64,000 nucleotides of DNA from an uncultured Lachnospiraceae bacterium (GTDB lineage: Bacteria > Bacillota > Clostridia > Lachnospirales > Lachnospiraceae), in the NCBI GenBank assembly GCA_947564735.1, contig CANOEC010000019.1:1-64000 (forward strand). The letters run 5' to 3'. Below, one piece after another: positions 26,603 to 37,155 of the stretch. Position numbers and translations under genes: made by a program. The notes under the pieces were generated by a model that was not told the DNA's origin, ran no database searches, and saw only the letters and a program-made list of their open reading frames with translations. How positions within the stretch are numbered: the stretch's first letter is position 1; the number at the start of each line of letters is the position of its first letter.

Positions 26603-26966
26603 TTAAGTAGAATAAATGATCGCGGCTGTACAGACGTAAGGGTACAGGTGAGGAAAGTCCGGGCTTCACAGGGCAGGATGCCGGATAACGTCCGGTGGAG
26701 GTGACTCCAAGGCTAGTGCAACAGAAAAGAAACAGCCGTAGTTTTTGCGTTAGCAAATACTACTGGTCATGGTGGAATGGCAGTGTAAGAGACTACCGCT
26801 GCAACGGTAACGGTGCAGGCTGTGTAAACCCCATCCGAAGCAAGACCGAAACGAAAGCGACAGATTTGCCCGATCTGCTTTCAGGTGGGTCGCTTGAGGT
26901 ATCTGGCAACAGATATCCTAGATAGATGATCATTCACGACATAACCCGGCTTATCGTTCTGCTTAA
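26603..26966 (+). ncRNA. rnpB: RNase P RNA
   Basis: The catalytic RNA that trims tRNA 5' leaders. It carries the universal cores GAGGAAAGTCCGGGC near the 5' end and ACATAACCCGGCTTA near the 3' end, plus internal helices such as GGTGGAATGG and GAAACGAAAGC. The ends pair (TTAAGTAGAA with TTCTGCTTAA) to form helix P1. About 364 nt. Ends are estimated to a few bases. Confidence 0.93.
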
Positions 26967-26988
26967 TTCATATCAATAGGATATAGAG

Positions 26989-30583: not shown

Positions 30584-31359
30584 CAAAACTAATAAAATAT
30601 GAATGGCAATCCACATGGAAGCTGCTTGTGCCGGCGAATCTGCTCATTGTTGTAATGACTATTCTTGCCTGCATTACGGTACGGCTGGATGTTTTCGACG
30701 CGTATAACGAGGGGATGATATTCAGCGTCATAGCTATTATATTGACATATGTGGGCAGTATGTTTGTGGTGATGATTGGGACGGGAATCTATCTGATTTA
30801 CCGTTTTTATACGTCTACATATGGTGAACAGGGATATTTGCTGCATACGCTGCCGGTGGATAAGCATTACATTGTGGTGGCAAAAGTTTTGGTCAGTACG
30901 GCATGGGTAATGCTCAGTACTTGCCTGATATATCTGTCGGTTCTTTTACTTTTTAATGAGGAAGGCGATATTTTTACACAGATAATAGACAGTATCAAAG
31001 GAAGCGCCATGTGGTCCGGAACAGAGGATGTGAATGCGTTTGCAGTGATTATGACGTTGATAGCAGGTGTGGTCTTAATGTTTGCAAGAATCCTTAAAGT
31101 GACGGCATGTATTTCGCTGGGTCAGCTTTCCAACAACCATAAATTACTGGCGGCGTTCGGGTTTTATTTTCTGGTTTATATTGCGCAACAGATTATGAAC
31201 GGAATTTATTATGCGATTCTCGGATATATTAATAAAATAACGGGCGATTGGTATTATGGAAAAAGCTGGGAATATTCGCTGCTGTCGGGTTTGATATATG
31301 CGGTTGTCTTCTATCTGGTTACATGGTATATCATGGATAAAAAATTAAATCTGGAGTAG
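30577..31359 (+). CDS. ABC-2 type permease
   Basis: A 260-residue membrane protein with about six hydrophobic helices (starting near residues 16, 47, 100, 160, 190 and 230). It overlaps the ATPase gene and forms an ABC-2 type exporter with it. No substrate can be inferred. Its TAG stop lies within the first bases of the structured repeat that begins at 31356. Confidence 0.8.
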   Translation: MLAKLIKYEWQSTWKLLVPANLLIVVMTILACITVRLDVFDAYNEGMIFSVIAIILTYVGSMFVVMIGTGIYLIYRFYTSTYGEQGYLLHTLPVDKHYIVVAKVLVSTAWVMLSTCLIYLSVLLLFNEEGDIFTQIIDSIKGSAMWSGTEDVNAFAVIMTLIAGVVLMFARILKVTACISLGQLSNNHKLLAAFGFYFLVYIAQQIMNGIYYAILGYINKITGDWYYGKSWEYSLLSGLIYAVVFYLVTWYIMDKKLNLE

Positions 31360-31482
31360 ATTGAAAAATAAGCTTGATAGCTTATTTTTCAATCGGCAAT
31401 TTGTGCCGGAGCGTCACAAATATGCCTTGATGGCAGACGCAAATTTGAGATTTGCGTCGCCCCGTCGCGTAAAACGCTCCGG
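31356..31482 (+). other. Structured repeat element, copy 1 (three hairpins plus pseudoknot)
   Basis: Hairpin 1: ATTGAAAAATAAGC with GCTTATTTTTCAAT, 14 bp (31360-31393). Hairpin 2: GGCA-ATTTGTG with CACAAAT-A-TGCC (31395-31426) and loop CCGGAGCGT. Hairpin 3: GACGCAAAT with ATTTGCGTC (31436-31458). The whole 9-nt loop of hairpin 2 is complementary to ACGCTCCGG at 31474-31482, a possible pseudoknot. Copy 2 at 32777 shares bases 31356-31403 exactly and keeps all later pairings with different bases. From 31483 to 31628 a partial second module (ATTTTGTGCC...GGCTTACAAAT, about 31522-31559) and no gene are seen. Confidence 0.7.
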
Positions 31483-31628
31483 AATAGAGAGGAGTGTGAG
31501 AAATTGCATTTATCAACCGCAATTTTGTGCCGACGCTGATAGCGTTTTGGCTTACAAATTCGCAGGGTGTTTCTTGACATATTGCGGAAAAAGGAACAGA
31601 ATGGTTTAAGAAAGGTGGGTGTTTGGTT

Positions 31629-32777
31629 ATGACAAAAATAGATATTGTGTCAGGGTTTCTTGGAGCAGGTAAGACGACACTAATTAAAAAACTGCTGAAA
31701 GAAGCTTTGGCGGATACAAAGGTAGTATTGATAGAGAATGAATTTGGAGAAATTGGTATTGACGGTGGATTTTTAAAAGAAGCGGGGATTGAGATTAAGG
31801 AAATGAATTCCGGCTGTATCTGCTGTTCACTGGTAGGAGATTTTGGAACTTCTTTGAGGGAAGTGTTGGACACTTATGCACCGGAACGTATTTTGATTGA
31901 GCCATCCGGGGTGGGTAAGCTGTCCGATGTCATGAAGGCTGTACAGGATGCAATGGCTGACAGAGATGTGGAACTGAATAGTGCAGTGGCGGTTGTTGAT
32001 GCATGTAAATGTAAAATGTATATTAAGAATTTCGGTGAGTTTTTTGTCAATCAGATTGAACATGCCGGGACGATTGTACTGAGCCGGACGGATAAGCTGA
32101 GCGAGGAGAAGCTGGCAGTCTGTGTGGAGATGATACGTGAACATAACGAGAAAGCGACCATTATCACAACGCCGTGGGATGCGCTGGAAGGCAAAGATAT
32201 TCTGGAGACGATTGAGGGCGCGAAGGATTTGGAGGCGGAACTGATGCGGGAAGTGATGGCGCATCATGAGGAGCATGAACATCACCATGACCACGGTCCG
32301 GACTGTACCTGCGGCTGTCACGATCATGAGCACCATCACCATGAACATGATGAGCACGACGGGCATGAGCACCATCATCATGAGGAAGAGGGACATGAAC
32401 ACCATCACCATGAGGGAGAGGGACATGAGCACCATCACCATGAGCATGAGGAACATGACCATCACCACGACGGGCATGAACACCATCACCACCATCATGC
32501 AGATGAGATTTTTACAAGCTGGGGATTGGAGACGCCTGCCGTATACGAGAAAAAGGAGATAGAGCATATTCTCGCAGAACTTGATAAAGAAGAAGTGTAC
32601 GGTATTGTTTTGCGTGCGAAAGGTATGGTTCCCGCTTCGGACGGCGGCTGGATATATTTTGATTATGTTCCGGAAGAGAGTAACGTCAGAGATGGTAAGC
32701 CGGATGTTACCGGTAAGTTTTGTGTAATCGGTTCTAAGCTGAACGAGGAGAAGCTGGCGGAGTTATTTAAGAAGTAG
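31629..32777 (+). CDS. CobW/G3E-family GTPase with His-rich metal-binding segment
   Basis: A 382-residue COG0523 GTPase, a class of metallochaperones for zinc, nickel or cobalt insertion. Walker A is GFLGAGKTT (9-17), the metal-binding motif GCICC (62-66), followed by VEPSG-type and base-recognition segments (LSRTDKL). Residues about 211-293 are a striking run of His, Glu, Asp and Gly with a DCTCGCHD insert, the sort of metal store seen in zinc-regulated members. The CobW C-terminal domain follows. AAAGGTGGG lies before the ATG at 31629. A partner gene at 32973 has the same fold. Zinc is the likeliest metal, but the choice is inference. Confidence 0.9.
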   Translation: MTKIDIVSGFLGAGKTTLIKKLLKEALADTKVVLIENEFGEIGIDGGFLKEAGIEIKEMNSGCICCSLVGDFGTSLREVLDTYAPERILIEPSGVGKLSDVMKAVQDAMADRDVELNSAVAVVDACKCKMYIKNFGEFFVNQIEHAGTIVLSRTDKLSEEKLAVCVEMIREHNEKATIITTPWDALEGKDILETIEGAKDLEAELMREVMAHHEEHEHHHDHGPDCTCGCHDHEHHHHEHDEHDGHEHHHHEEEGHEHHHHEGEGHEHHHHEHEEHDHHHDGHEHHHHHHADEIFTSWGLETPAVYEKKEIEHILAELDKEEVYGIVLRAKGMVPASDGGWIYFDYVPEESNVRDGKPDVTGKFCVIGSKLNEEKLAELFKK

Positions 32778-32928
32778 TAGATTGAAAAATAAGCTTGATA
32801 GCTTATTTTTCAATCGGCAATTTGAGTCAGAGCCTCAAATATGCCTTGAGCGCAGCCGAGAATAAAAGTATTCCTTCGGAAAACTTTGAGATTCTCGGCG
32901 CGATGTCATCGCAGCAAGCTGCTTTGAC
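32777..32928 (+). other. Structured repeat element, copy 2
   Basis: Bases 32777-32824 match copy 1 exactly, including the 14-bp hairpin 1. Hairpin 2 is ATTTGAG with CTCAAAT (32820-32840), loop TCAGAGC. Hairpin 3 is GCCGAGAAT with ATTCTCGGC (32855-32863, 32891-32899), with an inner hairpin AAAGT.TTCC/GGAA.ACTTT. The 7-nt loop of hairpin 2 pairs with GCTTTGA at 32921-32927 (one G-U). It ends 45 nt before the next gene. Confidence 0.7.
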
Positions 32929-32972
32929 ATGGAGGATTAGATAGAAGTTAGCAGGAAGGGTGTGAACGTGAT

Positions 32973-33902
32973 ATGAAACCGGTTTATGTGATTAATGGTT
33001 TTCTGGAGAGCGGTAAAACCGAGTTTATTACCTATACGCTGTCGCAGCCGTACTTTCAGGTGAGAGGCAAAACATTGTTAATTTTATGTGAAGAAGGCGA
33101 GAATGAGTATGATGACAAGCTGCTGCGGTTGAGCCGTACAGAGTTAGAACTCATCGAGGATGAGAAGGATTTTAATCCGGCGAGACTGATTGAATTGGAG
33201 AAAAAACATAAGCCGGAGCGCATTATCATCGAATATAATGGTATGTGGAATTATAAAGAGATGAAGCTGCCGTGGCATTGGAGGATTGAGCAGCAGATTA
33301 CTACGATTGATGCCTCTACTTTTCCTATGTATTTTACAAATATGAAATCTCTTCTTGCGGAGCAGATTCGGGCATCGGAGATGATTATTTTCAACCGTTG
33401 CGACGGCGTGGAGGACTTAGGCAGTTATAAGAGGAATATCAAGGCAATTAATCAGAAGGCGGAGATTGTGTTTGAGGATTCCAACGGGGAGATTAATGAA
33501 ATTATGGAAGAAGATCTTCCGTATGATTTAAAAGCCCCTGTTATCGAGCTGGATAATGAGGGGTACGGTATCTGGTATCTGGATTCGTTAGATCATTTGG
33601 AGCGTTATGAAGGTAAGACAGTGCAGTTTACCGGTATGGTGTTAAAGCCGAAGGATTTCCCGCAGGATTATTTTGTACCGGGTAGAATGGCGATGACGTG
33701 TTGTGCGGATGACATGGCATTTTTGGGCTTTGCGTGCGAGTACGATAAGACGGATAAGCTTACCGATAAACAGTGGGTGAAAGTGACTGCCAAAGTAGCA
33801 AAAGAATATTTTGCCGATTACCAAGGGGAGGGACCGGTTCTTCATGCGATAAGTGTAGAACATACGAAGGCTCCTAAGGAGGAGATTATCAGTTTCACTT
33901 AG
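32973..33902 (+). CDS. CobW-like GTPase fused to a YcgQ/DUF1980-like C-terminus
   Basis: A 309-residue protein. The N-terminal part is a COG0523-like P-loop domain with GFLESGKT (9-16) but no CxCC motif, so it may not bind metal in the usual way. The last about 100 residues (VQFTGMVLKPKDFP, then FVPGRMAMTCCADDMAFLGFACEY, shown in parts) resemble the C-terminal domain of the YcgQ/TIGR03943 proteins, which I recall as partners of YcgR and zinc-linked in Bacillus. AGGAAGGG precedes the ATG. It directly follows a metallochaperone-type relative, which supports a joint role in metal, probably zinc, supply. The domain match is from memory. Confidence 0.7.
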   Translation: MKPVYVINGFLESGKTEFITYTLSQPYFQVRGKTLLILCEEGENEYDDKLLRLSRTELELIEDEKDFNPARLIELEKKHKPERIIIEYNGMWNYKEMKLPWHWRIEQQITTIDASTFPMYFTNMKSLLAEQIRASEMIIFNRCDGVEDLGSYKRNIKAINQKAEIVFEDSNGEINEIMEEDLPYDLKAPVIELDNEGYGIWYLDSLDHLERYEGKTVQFTGMVLKPKDFPQDYFVPGRMAMTCCADDMAFLGFACEYDKTDKLTDKQWVKVTAKVAKEYFADYQGEGPVLHAISVEHTKAPKEEIISFT

Positions 33903-36866: not shown

Positions 36867-36872
36867 ATAAAA

Positions 36873-37155
36873 AAACCTGTGAGAAAGAGGAGTAGGAACA
36901 AAGAAACTGGTGCAGAGAGCCGCGGCTGGTGGAAAGCGGTACAGGATTTGTTTTGAATGGGCTTTCGAGGCTGACCTGAAATAACAGTAGGAGTCGGCGG
37001 GAACCGCGCCCGTTATCAATGCGGCATGTATATATCGGGAACGATTTGTATGTGAGAAGAGGTGGACGTTATTTTACGATGCGTCAATTTGAGTGGTACC
37101 GCGATAATAATTTAGTTTATTACCGTCTCAGACAATTGTCTGGGGCGTTTTTTTT
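36873..37155 (+). promoter_or_regulatory. T-box riboswitch, specifier TGG (Trp)
   Basis: A tRNA-sensing leader. Stem I base GAAAG/CTTTC (36883-36887, 36962-36966) encloses an internal loop with AGTA on the left and GAATGG on the right, placing TGG (36958-36960) as specifier codon for tRNA-Trp. The distal loop carries the GGTGG-type motif. The T-box sequence GAGTGGTACCGCG (37091-37103) would bind the uncharged tRNA end. The terminator CGTCTCAGAC/GTCTGGGGCG (37124-37147) with eight T ends the leader. An ATG (Met) reading shifted by one base is possible but does not fit the genes. Confidence 0.9.

Follow-up and report, generated by a model that had tools for sequence, protein, structure and literature searches.

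A structured repeat, probably mobile, that follows Shine–Dalgarno-like motifs and ends in one of its own

The stretch analysed here, 64,000 nucleotides (nt) of contig CANOEC010000019.1 (assembly GCA_947564735.1, positions 1 to 64,000; hereafter the window), holds two copies of a structured element, each upstream of a CobW-type gene. The titles of most named loci nearest to the second of these genes point to Lachnospiraceae as the carrier family. Copy 1 (31359..31494) matches a covariance model of the element with 161 bits and directly follows a Shine–Dalgarno (SD)-like motif, TCTGGAGTA (31350..31358), which shares bases with the TAG stop of the open reading frame (ORF) before it. Next comes CobW1 (31632..32777), a COG0523-type GTPase with a His-rich insert, and copy 2 (32780..32939, 133 bits) begins 2 nt past the CobW1 stop codon. 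CobW2 (32973..33902), which combines cobW with DUF1980_C, lies behind copy 2. All of these features are on the plus strand. As will be seen below, the window copies are atypical in being placed at or just past the stop codons of preceding genes.

A preliminary description of this locus had named the two copies and their pairings, and all of the strings that it listed are present where it placed them, including hairpins 2 and 3 (H2 and H3) and, in both copies, the pairing of the H2 loop with a downstream strand. Two of its measurements needed correction: the identical block exists but is exactly 49 nt long (31355-31403 and 32776-32824) rather than 48, and the first hairpin (H1) is a perfect one of 16 base pairs (bp) rather than 14. 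In copy 1, the palindromic H1 with its TGAT loop (31359..31394) is followed by H2 (31395..31426; GGCA+ATTTGTG with CACAAAT+TGCC), whose loop (31406-31414) is the 5′ strand of a pseudoknot, and by H3 (31432..31461; GGC A GACGCAAAT with ATTTGCGTC GCC). The 3′ pseudoknot strand, ACGCTCCGG (31474..31482), pairs with that loop, and an SD-like 3′ end, AATAGAGAGGAG (31483..31494), closes the copy; it is unusual in having no start codon close behind. In copy 2, H1 (32780..32815), H2 (32816..32845; GGCA+ATTTGAG with CTCAAAT+TGCC, loop 32827-32833) and H3 (32851..32902; CGC A GCCGAGAAT with ATTCTCGGC GCG) precede the 3′ pseudoknot strand GCTTTGA (32921..32927) and an element-borne SD sequence, GGAGG (32931..32935). 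The pairing of TCAGAGC with GCTTTGA in this copy includes one G-U pair. Compared with shuffled sequences, the predicted folding of copy 1 is far from chance (z = -7.9), and so is that of copy 2 when the 15 leading nt of H1 are omitted (z = -4.3). The SD-like 3′ end, the extension of H3 (GGC/GCC or CGC/GCG) and a genome-wide family of copies are new relative to the preliminary description.

We built the covariance model from 31 copies. From its hits, 121 were chosen by hand, with weaker hits and antisense hits to H1 only excluded, and removal of one duplicate left 120; the 102 copies scoring at least 60 bits are the basis of the position counts and pair counts. Across the family, the element is free of ORFs, about 130-160 nt long and highly base-paired, with H1, H2 and H3 in this order and a pseudoknot in which the H2 loop pairs with a strand ending ~3 nt before the SD sequence. 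When the 102 copies were aligned to the model, 96.5% of pair cells held a standard pair (79.4% after shuffling), both sides had changed in 38 of 47 pairs, and the covariation score was 0.425, compared with 0.131 after shuffling and at most 0.059 with slid partners. The pair count was nearly the same on 96 copies (five loci, L018, L019, L096, L098, and L099, omitted and L130 below the cut). Hence, the covariation that had been argued from two copies extends to 102, and the result named beforehand as fatal, a model that finds only the two copies and no further covariation, did not materialize. No Rfam 15 family scored above its gathering threshold, and no weak Rfam match on any element was judged related. 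Terminal inverted repeats at both ends were sought and not found (the ends read GTGTG/GATTG... and ...AATGGAGATTA); apart from the 5′ hairpin itself, the element has no long inverted repeat.

The alignments were fitted to the nested helices, and the pseudoknot was not part of the model; even so, 91.0% of pseudoknot cells are paired, and five of the nine pairs show changes on both sides. With 42 distinct H2 loops, the mean pairing score of a loop with its own downstream strand is 7.0, against 4.95 with swapped strands and a maximum of 5.6 in 500 swaps. Versions of loop and partner include CCGGAGCGT/ACGCTCCGG, CCGAAGCGT/ACGCTTCGG, TCAGAGC/GCTCTGA, CTGAGCGA/TCGCTCAG, CCGCAGGCGC/GCGTCTGCGG and GACGAGC/GCTCGTC. 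Most loop versions have a fitting partner, and 12 of the 102 copies score below 6, e.g., that at L018 (4134-4292, minus strand), where the H2 loop is the inverted form ACGCTCCGG, the usual pseudoknot is impossible, and the sequence looks like an inversion inside the hairpin. A further small hairpin, overlapping the pseudoknot strand, is moderately supported (score of at least 3 in 82 of 90 copies; mean 3.53 versus 3.00 after shuffling).

The copies show a preference for certain flanks. An SD core (GGAG, GAGG, or AGGA) lies within 18 nt before the element in 81 of 102 copies, compared with 16% of random upstream stretches, and the last two bases 5′ of the element are TA in 73 of 102. At the other end, counting from the first base of the element's SD sequence, a start codon that opens a frame of at least 40 codons lies 7-21 nt downstream in 83 of 102 copies, with 59 at exactly 10 nt. 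A near-identical motif, AATGGAGRWTA, occurs at both ends of the element (for the motif before the start codon, the count covers 89 copies).

Comparison of related genomes revealed sites with and without the element. G013, a genome of the same genus with the same gene order, has no element at either window site, and the site of copy 1 reads CTGGATTAATTAAAATAG there. Two other genomes, G006 and G035, are 90-93% identical in a region in which G006 carries insertions of 135 and 141 nt between the SD sequence and the ATG of two adjacent genes, the first of them fabZ-like by reading, and both sites are empty in G035; the empty AGGAGAGAAGAATATG of G035 corresponds to AGGAGAGAATA, element, GGAATGGAGGTTAATATG in G006. 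The reverse case, an element in G035 and an empty site in G006, precedes a gene whose product starts with MSKYAG (rubrerythrin-like by reading), and a second copy near this gene falls inside a 94% match and is hence common to both genomes. At these three resolved sites, the SD sequence before the ATG belongs to the element and does not duplicate that of the target. A search for empty sites within the genus of G121 turned up only G121 itself. At the fab locus, searched in 29 relatives, the same two sites hold what is left of the element in three genomes: a copy with a deletion in G002, and 3′ remnants in G024 and G030 (18-28 bits). Several other copies lack their 5′ part and keep the 3′ SD sequence, internal deletions also exist (L026, L029, L032, and L414), and the flanks, read by eye, place some copies immediately after a second copy's 3′ end, the two occasionally belonging to different subfamilies.

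Model searches of the genomes scored a limited number of candidates in each under strict filters, so the copy numbers and absences that follow are approximate. The genome of the window has 22 model matches above 40 bits, and a 161-nt query hit many places in it and matched 27 of 61 genomes, own genome included. Counting the own genome each time, matches were found in 27 of 150 genomes (26 genera) in a family-wide search and in 16 of 295, two other families included, in an order-wide search; across the phylum, one of 348 genomes matched at E <= 1e-6, the window's own. As far as sampled, the element is a dispersed repeat confined to the order. For 66 of 91 copies, the nearest copy lies in the same genome (mean 5, maximum 15 in 1000 shuffles of the labels); the copies have been amplified lineage by lineage. 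Several contigs begin at or within a copy (C27, C54, C64, and C72 of G121; C12, C78, C84, C86, and C99 of G035), and since draft assemblies break at copies, copy counts may be lower bounds. Two queries gave no match on plasmids, and a pattern scan of viral_contigs gave 0 matches. Five "phage" records were matched, three of them across the whole element. Typical copies occur in three human-faeces records labelled bacteriophage (L415, L416, and L417; MT837007.1, MT836788.1, and MT838414.1). The neighbouring genes in two of the "phage" records are enolase-like and MBOAT-like by reading, with one copy preceding the enolase-like gene, and we therefore consider these records probably bacterial DNA.

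The copies are numerous and structurally conserved, they prefer one kind of site and one orientation, they alternate with empty sites, and they bring an SD sequence of their own. We conclude that the window probably contains two copies of a mobile element that is non-autonomous, has no ORF, inserts in sense orientation 3′ of SD-like motifs and ends in its own SD sequence. We propose that the element, moved by a protein acting in trans, enters directly 3′ of an SD-like motif (consensus AAtGGAGRWTA), usually in the few bases between the SD sequence of a gene and its start codon. Insertion would leave the native SD sequence ~140 nt upstream, and translation should then use the element's SD sequence, ~3 nt behind the conserved pseudoknot, which would account for the tolerance of insertions before fabZ-like or enolase-like genes. 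Its position suggests that the element is transcribed, and the folded RNA may leave the new SD sequence usable; the location of the pseudoknot next to it likewise suggests a role in translation. Where a copy has decayed, its SD-bearing 3′ end is often retained, presumably as the ribosome-binding site of the gene.

Several observations weigh against this proposal. In nested folding, the SD sequence is paired with a mean probability of 0.70, or 0.61 with the pseudoknot strands blocked, and with both strands blocked the probability exceeds 0.5 in 54 of 86 copies; such predicted pairing speaks against a fold that leaves the SD sequence free. In the own genome, a start codon stands behind 7 of 17 strong copies, as opposed to 76 of 85 elsewhere, and both window CobW genes keep native start regions that are conserved in G013, including an RBS (ribosome-binding site)-like region, AGGAAGGG, ahead of the CobW2 start at 32973. 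Behind copy 1 follows a TTGACA, also conserved in G013, which could place the CobW1 promoter downstream of copy 1. Moreover, the 5′ flank of a copy resembles its own 3′ end at 8.23 of 12 bases, compared with 7.82 for other copies of the genome (87 copies, within-genome permutations; 0 of 2000 were as high, and 20 of 2000 in another test), a difference of small size. Unusual sequence is common to flank and 3′ end at L171, L021, L088, and L138, which a purely element-borne SD sequence does not explain. This similarity could stem from target duplication or from later conversion; simple target duplication is contradicted at the three resolved empty sites, yet locus-specific similarity is seen in other copies, some of which look duplicated. 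Lastly, no mobilising enzyme was found in the 36 genomes examined, and seven with copies (G001, with a single match, G002, G006, G020, G102, G120, and G154) have neither a Y1 transposase nor a reverse transcriptase. These are draft genomes, in which repeated transposase genes may be missed, so absence of an enzyme is no proof.

What the copies do for their neighbours can be read in other ways. The preliminary description had offered either a metal-related leader or a mobile structured repeat, and it is the second that stood. Both window copies do lie upstream of CobW-type genes, as a metal-responsive leader of these genes would; we nevertheless give this reading almost no credence, since the genes downstream of the family have no functional theme. 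From 103 downstream frames, 100 proteins were scanned (L029, L132, and L148 omitted) and matched 157 Pfam families, the commonest being MatE (5 of 100); cobW came up in 2 of 100, and one of these two belongs to the window. Hits thus occur regardless of gene function, the pattern said in advance to favour a plain repeat, and yet the repeat is hardly plain, with its conserved structure, its place behind SD motifs and, usually, a start codon just after it. Nor does the element accompany CobW in the relatives examined: G013 has none before its CobW genes, the CobW loci of 29 further genomes (of 60 other genus genomes searched) showed none ahead of CobW, the model giving one weak 18-bit match there, >1 kb from the CobW match, and none of 80 named CobW2 loci, six of which hold <1.5 kb of upstream sequence, has one before CobW2. 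At one of the 80, L204, CobW1 is preceded by a related but smaller element. As a general role, a metal or CobW leader is refuted by G013, the 80 loci, the 29 relatives and the Pfam spread. Less improbable, although still unlikely in our estimate, is an RNA that controls translation as a riboswitch- or thermosensor-like switch, spread by mobility and now regulating scattered genes. The pseudoknot adjoining the SD sequence, the small hairpin that overlaps one of its strands and the frequent pairing of the SD sequence in nested folding would fit such a switch. However, pairing of the SD sequence with the pseudoknot strand is likely in 25 of 86 copies only, so there is no common masking design and we rejected general masking by this strand. 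The element also shares with riboswitch classes a conserved, covarying leader structure, but not a common function of the genes downstream.

The same evidence bears on how the element moves. It might transpose as DNA in the manner of IS200/IS605 or REPIN elements, a scenario that we find rather doubtful; a Y1 transposase acting in trans would recognise the hairpins in single-stranded DNA, and any RNA function would be incidental. Insertion 3′ of a fixed motif, the lack of target duplication at the three resolved sites, a hairpin at the 5′ end and the absence of an ORF are all as expected, and Y1 genes, present in 15 of 36 drafts, show a weak trend toward genomes with copies (13 of 27, versus 2 of 9 without). 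Nevertheless, 14 of the 27 copy-bearing drafts have no Y1 match (G006, G014, G020, G120, G154, and G190 among them), and a pseudoknot next to the SD sequence is not expected from DNA recognition alone. A search for an autonomous relative covered 26 Y1 loci and found no good element match beside them, the best being two adjacent weak ones of 19 and 18 bits at L309. Movement through RNA by target-primed reverse transcription, producing 5′-truncated copies with intact 3′ ends, appears more doubtful still, indeed quite improbable. Copies without a 5′ part in which the 3′ SD sequence survives would be its signature, but they are also explained by internal deletions, as seen in other copies, and by selection on the SD sequence, which would preserve 3′ ends as well, and we do not take truncation as proof of reverse transcription. 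Reverse transcriptase genes, detected in 16 of the 36 drafts, are alike in genomes with copies (12 of 27) and without (4 of 9), and the 20 genomes that lack them include G006, G154, and the two-contig G426. With seven copy-bearing drafts lacking both enzymes, neither is supported as an obligatory partner in the same genome.

Searches of open-licence papers brought up no account of such an element among the titles and abstract beginnings listed. The closest printed relatives appear, from the parts of the sources at hand, to be small dispersed repeats such as BOX and heptamers close to start codons (PMC3049150, PMC4679880), neither with the present combination of features. Like the element, the BOX, RUP, and SPRITE repeats of Streptococcus pneumoniae are small, interspersed, probably parasitic, nested in places and able to affect neighbouring genes; in the excerpted text, they are not credited with SD targeting, an element-borne SD sequence or a covarying pseudoknot, and BOX-encoded ORFs are without good SD candidates (PMC3049150). 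Of the defining features given in that text, the element shows the short length, the many copies, the high degree of base pairing and the lack of an ORF, but not the terminal inverted repeats at both ends; target-site duplication is absent at the three resolved empty sites, with locus-specific flank similarity in other copies. The TAACTGA heptamers of Beggiatoaceae and Cyanobacteria (MacGregor 2015, PMC4679880) are also multicopy with a possible translational role and, as far as the available portion of that paper goes, mostly lie no more than several nucleotides ahead of the start codons of genes that are unrelated to each other, within a single genome, in repeat regions where canonical RBSs are rare; they are direct repeats of 7 nt, unlike a folded element of 130-160 nt.

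REP/REPIN sequences with RAYT, and IS200/IS605 elements, resemble the element in being non-autonomous, palindromic and inserted 3′ of a short motif. Their insertion does not duplicate the target, which agrees with the three resolved sites of the element, while some of its other copies look duplicated. REPs carry GTAG/CGTC tags. The element differs from both groups in that many of its carriers have no Y1 transposase and in its pseudoknot plus SD sequence at the 3′ end. The preQ1 and SAM-II H-type pseudoknot riboswitches, too, have a pseudoknot next to the SD sequence in a 5′ leader, but the element lacks a common gene function and an Rfam match and has a dispersed, mobile distribution.

A smaller sister element (type B) consists of H1, one hairpin and an SD sequence and is similarly placed, with an SD-like motif ahead of it and a start codon after it; it occurs at L204:1316-1464 (before CobW1), L186:21-191 (two in tandem) and L205:83-196. 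A diverged remnant that resembles type B lies directly behind copy 1 in the window (31508..31600, plus strand; direct repeat D4); similar intact elements exist elsewhere, and G013 lacks much of the sequence occupied by the remnant. Within CobW1, a His-rich repeated stretch (32262-32500) is a likely metal-binding insert. The window also contains a T-box leader (36870-37133) before a gene for an ABC-type substrate-binding protein, and at L107:1205-1578 a short form of the element stands between a T-box leader and the ATG of an apparently similar gene. A bacterial RNase P class A RNA gene lies at 26604-26969 (308 bits).

Small dispersed repeats are usually considered neutral, or accidental terminators or promoters. 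The element described here targets a highly sensitive point in the gene leader and carries what may keep the gene translated, and, as with CobW in the window, it can mislead searches for leader RNAs. We tentatively suggest, as a possibility short of an even chance, that it is a mobile ribosome-binding-site cassette: an integration machinery that recognises SD sequences would replace host RBSs by a pseudoknot-linked SD sequence, in repeated waves in which some copies land in older ones and some decay until only the 3′ end with its SD sequence is left. Throughout an order of gut bacteria, genes with no relation to each other, essential ones among them, would in this way have had their translation initiation rewired, through a novel mobilising mechanism. 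If the element is what we propose, it would add to the structured RNAs an abundant family that Rfam 15 lacks, it would hint at a transposition system specific for SD sequences, and ribosome-binding sites would be replaceable by a mobile element.

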